Source: Candidatus Eremiobacterota bacterium (GTDB lineage: Bacteria; Vulcanimicrobiota; Vulcanimicrobiia; Vulcanimicrobiales; Vulcanimicrobiaceae). From it: a stretch of 64,000 bases of DNA. The DNA is taken from the NCBI GenBank assembly GCA_019235885.1, contig JAFAKB010000074.1:1-64000 (forward strand), given 5' to 3'. Positions 40,630-43,920 of the stretch are shown here, piece after piece. The notes below the pieces were generated by a model that was not told the origin of the DNA, did no database searches, and saw nothing but the letters and a program-made list of their open reading frames with translations. Position numbers and translations under genes: made by a program. Every line of letters begins with the position of its first letter. The stretch's first letter is position 1.

Positions 40630-41223
40630 GTGGTACTCCGGGACCGGCCTGGGCTCGTGATTCACGTCGTTGCCGAGCGCCGTTTGGGGCGGCTCGCGGT
40701 GTACGGTCCAGACGGGCACCTGTGGCATCTCGCCGACGCGAGCGGCGAAGCGCGGGGCGCCGGAATGCGCGCTCCGTACGGGCCGGGTAATCCGATCGCG
40801 CCGGGTCACTACCGGCTGCTGGGCCAGGTCGAGCACGATCCGCCGACCGCCGAGGACGGCCCGGGCGCGATCGACGTCGGCGATCTCGACAACACGACGC
40901 GGCGCCGGCTGATCGACGCCAGCCGCGCGCGGGTGCGCGGCGATGCGCTCGAGATCGCTTCGCTCACCGGACGGGCCGGCGGGCTCGCGGAATACGGTCG
41001 CACCGCGATCGTGATCCGCGGCGGCGGCACGATCCTGGCGCACCTCACCCCGCCCGAGGATCCGCTCGCGCCCTACCAGCGGCTGACGCGCAGCGACGGC
41101 GGACTCCGCCTGCACAACGCGGACCTCGCGCGGCTGCTGATCATCCTCAAGCCGGCGTTCAAGGACGAGACGACGATCGTCTTGACGGTGCTCGGCGAGC
41201 CGCCGCGCACCTCGCTGCACTAG
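40630..41223 (+). CDS. L,D-transpeptidase (YkuD)-like protein lacking catalytic residues
   Basis: 197 residues from GTG. The motif GPGNPIAPGHYRLLG and the later LTRSDGGLRLHNADLARL match the YkuD fold, whose signature is S-H-G-C-x-R. Here the motif is S155-D156-G157-G158-L159-R160, so His and the nucleophilic Cys are replaced, and the earlier conserved His appears as Arg (IVIRGGG). The fold is probably retained but without transpeptidase activity. No signal peptide is seen. The assignment to YkuD is by motif alignment by eye. An alternative is an unrelated hypothetical protein. Confidence 0.5.
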   Translation: MVLRDRPGLVIHVVAERRLGRLAVYGPDGHLWHLADASGEARGAGMRAPYGPGNPIAPGHYRLLGQVEHDPPTAEDGPGAIDVGDLDNTTRRRLIDASRARVRGDALEIASLTGRAGGLAEYGRTAIVIRGGGTILAHLTPPEDPLAPYQRLTRSDGGLRLHNADLARLLIILKPAFKDETTIVLTVLGEPPRTSLH

Positions 41224-41852
41224 GCGCCCGCGAGCGCTTCGGCGAGCACGAGATCTTCGATCGCCAGGCCGACCGATTTGAAGATCGTCACGTCGCTCGG
41301 GGCACGGCGAACCTGCGCGCCGTTCACCAGCTCGATGCCGAGCTCGCGCGTTTTCGCGAGCACGGGTCCTTCGCGGCCCGGGACGCGCGCGATCGCGTAG
41401 ACGCACGCGACCTCGACGAGCGCGGCGATCGCCTCGACGTGTGCGAGCGCTTGCGGGCCGGTGCCGAAGACGACGACCCTCGCCGGCGCGTTGCGGTCGG
41501 CGACCAAATACTTCGTTGCGAGCGCAGAGACGGCGGCGGTCCGGACGCACGTCAGCGCCGCGGCGTCGAGCACCGCGAGCGGCGCCAGCGTCTCGCGCGC
41601 GAGCAGCACGTACGCGCCTTGCACGCGCGGCACACCGGCCGCGGCCGGCAGCGCGTTCACCGTGACAAGCTTCACCCCAGCGGTCCCGCTCGCGGACTGC
41701 GCCGGCATCATCAGCAGCGTCCCGCCCGCGAGCGCGACGTGCGCGCGCGGGACGAGCGGCGGCAGCGGGGCCCGAAACGCGCGCTCGAGGATCTCGACCG
41801 CCCGCCGCGGCGGCAGCGCCCGCGCGACGTCGCCGGCCGAAAAGGTGCGCAC
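41220..41852 (-). CDS. Ornithine cyclodeaminase/mu-crystallin-family protein with internal deletion
   Basis: 210 residues from GTG, against about 310-330 for the family. The N-terminal dimerisation part is normal: [41 protein letters not shown] and the Rossmann motif [17 protein letters not shown]. Soon after, near residue 170, the sequence jumps to [20 protein letters not shown], which is normally the C-terminal end. About 100 residues of the NAD-binding domain are missing in frame. The protein may be non-functional or reduced to a binding role. It is divergent from the chemoreceptor-like gene, 49 bases apart. Confidence 0.7.
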
Positions 41853-41901: not shown

Positions 41902-43704
41902 ATGGAGTCTGACGAGCTCGCGGCTTTGGCCCGGCAGATGTCCGCGGCGATCGAGCACCTTCACGCGATGACCCAGCAAATCGCCGGCAACGCGCGCACG
42001 CAAGCGGCCTCGCTGCGCGAGGTCGTCGAGACCACGCGCTCGGCATCGCGCGAGCTCGCCGGGACGCTCGAGGTCGTGCACGCGGTGCGCGGCGAGGTCG
42101 GCGGCGCGACCGACGCGGTCGGCGTCGCCTCGCAGCAGATCGCACAGCTGGCGCACGCCGTCGACCGGCTCGCGGCGCAAAGCCGCGCCGGCGCCGGCGC
42201 GATCGAGCAATTGCTCGCGGTGAGCGCGCGGATCGGCGCGGCGGTCTCGTTCATCGAGGAGGTCTCGCAGCAGACGAACCTGCTCGCGCTCAACGCGTCG
42301 ATCGAAGCGGCGCGCGCGGGCGTGCACGGCCGCGGCTTCGCCGTCGTCGCAGGCGAGATTCGCAAGCTCGCCGACTCGACGCGCGCGGCGACGACCGAGA
42401 TGAACGCGCTGCTGCGCGAGATCGAGGCGAAGGCCCGCGACGCGCAAGAGATCGCCGGCGGCACCGAAGAAGCGGCGCGGCTCGGCGCCGACGCATCGGC
42501 GGTTGCCGAGCACGCGCTGGCGTCGATCTCGAGCGCGGTCGGAAGCGTCGCGGCGTCGTTCGAGCGGGTCGACCGCACGATCGCCGCGCAGGCCACGAGC
42601 ACCGAAGAGCTGGAACGCGCCTCGCAAGGCGTGCTCGACATCTCACGCGCGCACCATACCGCCGCGGCCGAGTCGCGGCTGTCGGTGAACGCGCTCGCGC
42701 ACCACGTGAAGCGGCTGGCGACCGGCGTCGAAGCCGCGGCGCTCGTGCGCCGGCGCAACGTGCTGCGCGTCGCGACGATCCTCGGCGACTCGCCCTCGGC
42801 CGCGGCATGGAAGCAGTTTCAGACGCTCGTCCGCGAGCGGACCGGCGGGCTCGTCTCGGTCGAGCTGGACATCCCGTACACCGGCAAAGGCCGCGGCGAG
42901 GTGAACGTCTTCGACGATCTGCTGGCGGGCGAGCTCGCGCTGGCCTCGGCGTCGTGCTCGGTCTCCGGCAACGTGATCCCGGCCGCGCAACTGCTCGAGC
43001 TGCCGTTCTTGTTCGATTCGCCCGGGCACGCGTTCGCGGTGCTCGACTCGCCGGCCGGTCAAGAGGTGCTCGGCGAAGCGGCCGCCGTCGGTTTGCTCGC
43101 GTACGGCTACCTCGAGAACGGGATGCGGCACCTGACCTCGTCGGTCGCGCCGGTCCGCTCGCCCGACGATCTGCGCGGGCTGCGCTTGCGCGTGATGGAA
43201 GCGCCGATCTATCTCTACCTGGCCGATGCGTTCGGCGCGATCGCGGTGACCGTGCCGTACTTCAAGCTGCCGGAAGCGCTGCGCGAGGGCGAAGCGCAGG
43301 CGCAGGAAAACCCGCTCGTCAACATTCGCAGCCTCGATCTGCCGCGCGTGCAGCGCTATCTCACGCTGAGCGCGCACACCTACACGCCGCAGATCGTCTT
43401 CGGCAACCCGCTCGCGATGGAAGCGCTCGGCGAGCACCGCGCCGGCGTCGAAGGCGCGCTGCGCGAGGCGATGGCGTGGCACCGCGAGCGGGCGCGCGAG
43501 ATGGAGCGCGAGGCGCTGGCCTGGCTGCGCACGCGCATCGAGATCGTCGAATTGGACGCGCGCGAGCGCGCGGCGTTCCGCGCCGCGGCCGCGCCGGTCG
43601 ACGCGCACCTCGAGCGGCTGGTCGGCGGCGGCCGCTGCGCGAAGCTGCGCAACGCCGCGGCGGCGGTGCGCACCGGCCGCGGCATGTCGGCGCTGCGCGC
43701 GTAG
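41902..43704 (+). CDS. Soluble methyl-accepting chemotaxis signalling domain fused to a TRAP-type DctP binding domain
   Basis: 600 residues from ATG. Residues 1-270 are a coiled-coil MCP signalling domain: the highly conserved tip is [20 protein letters not shown] at about 118-137, followed by [22 protein letters not shown]. Residues about 286-575 are a DctP-type periplasmic-binding domain: [13 protein letters not shown] at the start, [12 protein letters not shown] with the ligand arginine, then [13 protein letters not shown]. No signal peptide, transmembrane helix or HAMP segment is seen, so the whole protein should be cytoplasmic. It should bind an organic acid and signal through CheA/CheW, encoded elsewhere. 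The order MCP then DctP, inside the cell, is unusual. Confidence 0.85.
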
Positions 43705-43719
43705 CGAACGCGCCGCAGC

Positions 43720-43920
43720 GTGACGGATCAGGATCAGCGCGGCGTGACCGATCAGGACGAGCGCCGCGCGAGCGAGCGCGAAGACCGGCGCCGCGGCGAA
43801 CGCCGGCGCTCGCAGCTCAGCATCTTCGCCGAACGCCGGCTCGGCGAGCGTCGCCGCATCCAGCGCCGGCTGGTCGACGTCTTCCGCAGTTTCTTGGGGC
43901 TCCCGCCGCTCGAGCGATGA
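43720..43920 (+). CDS. Small Arg-rich protein
   Basis: 66 residues from GTG, 15 bases after the chemoreceptor stop. Its TGA overlaps the ATG of the next gene by four bases, which supports real translation. About a third of the residues are arginine; two repeats of the RRxGERRRxQ type are visible with a short hydrophobic end (VDVFRSFLGLPPLER). A basic helical peptide of this kind could bind nucleic acid or an acidic partner. No homology is recognised. Confidence 0.45.
   Translation: MTDQDQRGVTDQDERRASEREDRRRGERRRSQLSIFAERRLGERRRIQRRLVDVFRSFLGLPPLER

Follow-up and report, generated by a model that had tools for sequence, protein, structure and literature searches.

A gene that joins a chemoreceptor signalling domain to a solute-binding domain lies at positions 41902-43704 (+) of the window, by which we mean the whole 64,000-nucleotide stretch of DNA that was analysed. 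It forms a single unbroken frame of 600 aa. In the encoded protein, Pfam places MCPsignal (PF00015) at residues 82-244 (E 1.2e-30, 107 bits against a cut-off of 34.6) and DctP (PF03480) at residues 297-566 (E 6e-48, 164 bits against a cut-off of 23.4). The first-pass annotation of this DNA had described an MCP signalling hairpin with a fully conserved tip, followed by a C-terminal DctP domain, and both parts of this description are confirmed by the Pfam matches, the canonical tip sequence and the full-length DctP fold. On the opposite strand, at 41220-41852 (-), there is an ornithine cyclodeaminase-like gene, possibly truncated, as its product has 210 aa against a profile of 314 positions. Just after the fusion gene lies an Arg/Glu-rich ORF of 66 aa without a Pfam match (43720-43920, +); its end overlaps, by ATGA, a gene for an aminoacyl-tRNA editing domain that starts at 43917.

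Upstream of the ATG at 41902, the frame remains open for 441 bases, as far as a GTG at 41461, and this stretch is mostly antisense to the ornithine cyclodeaminase-like gene. The homologue L010, which shares 77% identity with the window protein, has a stop one codon ahead of the same ATG, and the alignment of the two proteins starts at residue 1 of both; therefore, the ATG at 41902 is the true start and no longer start is hidden. A concealed N-terminal signal in a longer version of the protein is thereby ruled out. Hydropathy analysis agrees with the original description of a protein possessing neither a signal peptide nor a membrane helix: over 19 residues, the highest Kyte-Doolittle mean is 1.46 in the entire protein and 0.81 among segments starting in the first 60 residues. 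Because membrane-helix hydropathy is lacking and the start is fixed by L010, the fusion protein is predicted to be cytoplasmic. In this respect, it is unlike the stand-alone DctPs of the same bacterial family, which carry an N-terminal export signal, a Tat-like leader being read by eye in 23/23 of them (2 from the window genome and 21 others).

The MCP hairpin (41908-42744, +; residues 3-281) consists of two long antiparallel helices, at residues 3-138 and 140-281 in the AlphaFold2 model, and is accompanied by neither a HAMP domain nor a membrane helix. Its tip (42256-42360, +; residues 119-153) has the canonical CheA/CheW-contacting sequence and is intact, with the residues of typical receptors retained. 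Two observations on the hairpin count against the receptor function proposed below. Its pLDDT is low, at about 47-66, which is unsurprising because a normally dimerising coil was modelled as a monomer from 22 sequences. Moreover, when only the strict consensus is considered, there are no methylation sites in the window protein and one in L010.

DctP domains are known from transport: after export, they pass carboxylates on to TRAP permeases. In the window protein, the DctP domain (42751-43683, +; residues 284-594) is a complete two-lobed fold, as indicated by Pfam, Foldseek and VIA-align. Its superposition on 4P47 (Z 38.7, rmsd 2.0, 309 residues, 30% identity) covers nearly the entire mature TRAP binding protein. 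Most of this part is modelled with confidence (block pLDDT about 70-95), and the first DctP strand starts at residue 287, leaving a linker of only about five residues to the hairpin. The DctP part also passes the NCBI TRAP_S1 substrate-binding model, so automatic annotation could mask the fusion.

The fusion was found in 30 of the 99 genomes of the bacterial family, with both domains in 28 and fragments only in 2. Across the phylum (149 genomes), the single match outside the family is a piece comprising the linker and DctP at the start of a contig. Exact-peptide scans of GTDB species genomes, a weak test of spread beyond the phylum, returned no relatives in the first run and 22 loci in the second, all labelled either just bacterium or Candidatus Eremiobacterota, which in NCBI taxonomy equals Vulcanimicrobiota; in a plasmid scan, no record covered 80% of the query. 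Three architectures can be distinguished. The MCP-DctP type of the window, about 600 aa long, is found in the genus to which the window belongs, while most carriers have a long form of about 880 aa, MCP-DctP-MCP. A few relatives (L037, L038/L129 and L130) instead combine a MarR-type DNA-binding domain with a DctP domain of the fused clade (L037:82-1557, +; L038:1486-3108, -; L130:6578-8005, -), and these are apparently transcription factors that use the solute-binding domain as an effector domain. The architecture originally reported, MCP-DctP without a membrane helix, stands, although the window protein turns out to be a small member of a group in which most relatives have a second hairpin and some have MarR in place of the hairpin.

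The two hairpins of the long forms (loci L014-L036) differ constantly at their tips, at positions that we take to correspond to Tsr N376 and R394. In all 22 of the 22 long forms with both tips readable, the first tip has Q or E at the former position and L at the latter. The second tip is normal, with N and K/R, respectively. Tsr R394 is a CheA contact (PMC6746300), and the constant asymmetry suggests a division of labour between the hairpins. In the long-form model, the hairpins are well predicted and the DctP domain poorly; hence, it gives no basis for hairpin pairing. A further two-headed protein is encoded in the window genome itself, at L008:853-3477 (-); it has 875 aa and two MCP domains, with no membrane helix or recognised sensor, and resembles DosM of Vibrio cholerae.

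In the binding site of 4P47, Arg152, Arg173 and Asn213 hold the carboxylate, and residue 196 is aromatic (PMC11668362). In the alignment, the triad corresponds to Arg409 (43126-43128, +), Arg430 (43189-43191, +), which is the salt-bridge arginine, and Asn470 (43309-43311, +) of the window protein, while Tyr453 (43258-43260, +) matches the aromatic residue that closes the site. Arg430 also corresponds to Arg147 of SiaP, the residue that serves this protein as its selectivity filter towards carboxylates (PMC4646407). Of 31 fused proteins, 29 have the whole triad (23/23 long, 3/3 MarR and 3/5 short forms), and the equivalent of Arg430 is kept in all 31; thus, a loss of pocket residues in homologues, raised earlier as an objection, is not what the family displays. 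Both exceptions are short forms, L012 with Lys at 152 and L013 with Ser at 213 (4P47 numbering), and they count against a sensor function. The dN/dS of the DctP part, 0.03-0.30, is similar to that of the hairpins and indicates purifying selection. Members of the DctP family are predicted to bind dicarboxylates (PMC9602780), and 7BBR, among the nearest solved relatives, is described in its title as a sugar acid binding protein. From the conserved triad, we infer that the ligand class is a small carboxylate. The organic-acid ligand proposed at first is indirectly supported by this conservation; no particular acid is indicated.

A different role is conceivable, in which the DctP domain no longer binds a small molecule and serves as a spacer in the structure or as a platform for binding proteins, the receptor acting for the most part as a scaffold of a cytoplasmic array like that of DosM. 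With their two heads, the long forms resemble DosM, most of whose homologues are sensorless, and the altered triads of the two short forms would fit as well. However, a spacer does not account for a carboxylate arginine that never varies among the fused proteins, nor for purifying selection acting as strongly on DctP as on the hairpins, and a scaffold makes little sense in the MarR regulators, which use the same DctP clade. We regard this explanation as unlikely.

The fused DctP domains also appear to be separated from TRAP transport. In a tree of 45 DctP domains, drawn from family sequences alone and without an outgroup from other phyla, all 22 fused domains (MCP and MarR) form one clade, split from all 23 stand-alone ones by a 100/100 branch. 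The source of the fused domain may lie outside the phylum, because it shares 35-40% identity with exported DctPs encoded on proteobacterial plasmids and only 25-27% with the exported DctPs of its own genome. In 23 of the 30 carriers, 14 of these 23 being at least 90% complete, the fusion is the sole DctP domain of the genome; DctM was found in none of 22 of them, and G053 has a marginal 22-bit match. Since the DctP domain is kept there without a convincing TRAP permease, it has no TRAP transport role in those 23 carriers. The window genome encodes two other DctPs, and its only DctQM permease, with the single DctM of the genome, adjoins one of these and not the fusion.

Neighbouring genes were considered as a clue to the ligand and rejected, as the window, long-form and MarR-DctP loci point to no single one. 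A glutamate racemase-like gene, so called from its sequence and not from a profile match, is found close to several long-form loci, and the MarR-DctP genes have Peripla_BP_6, SBP_bac_5, glutamine synthetase-like and subtilase genes in their vicinity. It is also conceivable that DctP reads whether a protein partner, such as a transporter or a metabolic enzyme, is loaded, rather than sensing a free metabolite, given that exported solute-binding proteins interact as proteins with receptors and permeases (PMC9602780). This seems improbable, as most carriers are devoid of a TRAP permease, and in the long-form neighbourhoods no TRAP gene was recognised and no partner was common to all loci.

That an assembly join or a misread start conceals an ordinary membrane-bound or exported protein is so improbable as to be negligible: the window genome is split into 105 contigs and no stop precedes the ATG for 441 bases, but both domains occur in homologues of 27 other genomes from different assemblies, the in-frame stop of L010 directly precedes the start, and the only hydrophobic peaks of the long forms fall within the DctP fold. 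A join is itself ruled out by the recurrence of the same architecture in many independent assemblies. The proposed soluble MCP, sensing in the cytoplasm through its DctP domain, thus survives the three objections raised along with it (a hidden signal, lost pocket residues and an assembly join), its location being a prediction.

The partners that such a receptor needs are available. The window genome encodes both CheA and CheW, which adjoin CheC/CheX, PilZ and FlhA; CheR is also present. There are two CheW domains, one borne by CheA and one single, and six MCP genes in total. Within the family, CheW-domain genes occur in 26 of 30 fusion carriers and 28 of 69 non-carriers (p 2e-5, kinship ignored). 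Four carriers have no CheW, three of them being incomplete or highly fragmented assemblies, and this counts against a receptor function.

Taken together, these results make it likely that the fusion is a soluble cytoplasmic chemoreceptor in which a DctP domain, freed from export and TRAP transport, senses an intracellular small carboxylate and signals to CheA/CheW. The DctP domain would remain a genuine two-lobed binding domain, having given up its export signal and TRAP role to act as an intracellular sensor. Binding of the carboxylate would close the two lobes, and the short linker (about five residues) would transmit this movement to the MCP hairpin by way of the hairpin's C-terminal helix. 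The hairpin would in turn control CheA through CheW. The expected output would be flagellar chemotaxis. We infer the location, the ligand binding, the coupling of lobes to hairpin and this output.

On a broader scale, it seems on balance probable that one DctP lineage left the TRAP system and became a general module for sensing carboxylates inside the cell in Eremiobacterota, connected to three outputs: a single MCP, a double MCP and a MarR transcription factor. In the double-MCP form, whose two hairpins have diverged tips, closure of a single DctP domain may act on two kinase-control heads of unequal kind. The fusion would make it possible to study solute binding cleanly, apart from transport, and would offer a testable route to the internal organic acid monitored by a poorly studied phylum.

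The reversed order of domains was at first considered unusual. A C-terminal sensor on a soluble MCP is already known, and it is the use of DctP as that sensor that is unusual. Helicobacter TlpD is a soluble MCP with a C-terminal CZB sensor domain; like the fusion, it has an MCP hairpin without a membrane helix, followed by the sensor, but in such receptors the sensor is CZB or PAS and not DctP. TRAP DctP proteins (4P47, 7BBR, 4PDH and SiaP) share the whole fold and the carboxylate triad with the fusion, which differs from them in having no export signal and no permease partner and in being joined to a signalling hairpin. DosM, a component of the V. cholerae F9 arrays, combines two MCP signalling domains in a single soluble polypeptide, as the long forms do; however, 98% of its homologues are without a sensor, while the long forms contain a complete DctP domain between the hairpins (PMC7534058, PMC9321776). 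The window protein has a single hairpin only, and its genome has no triple-CheW adaptor such as that of the F9 cluster. More generally, SBP-type domains are known to serve signalling proteins as sensors (PMC9602780). The MarR-DctP proteins have a parallel of their own. LacI/GalR-type and LysR-type regulators employ a binding-protein-like fold as an intracellular effector domain, although, unlike the fusion, they draw on another binding-protein family and have no chemotaxis output. The literature searched, which covered few subscription papers, contained no report of DctP as an intracellular or chemoreceptor sensor, in agreement with the first-pass remark that no cytoplasmic DctP-MCP sensor was known. 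Soluble receptors, C-terminal sensors and double heads such as those of DosM are therefore already known, whereas DctP as an intracellular sensor, and as a sensor class for soluble chemoreceptors, is new within that literature.
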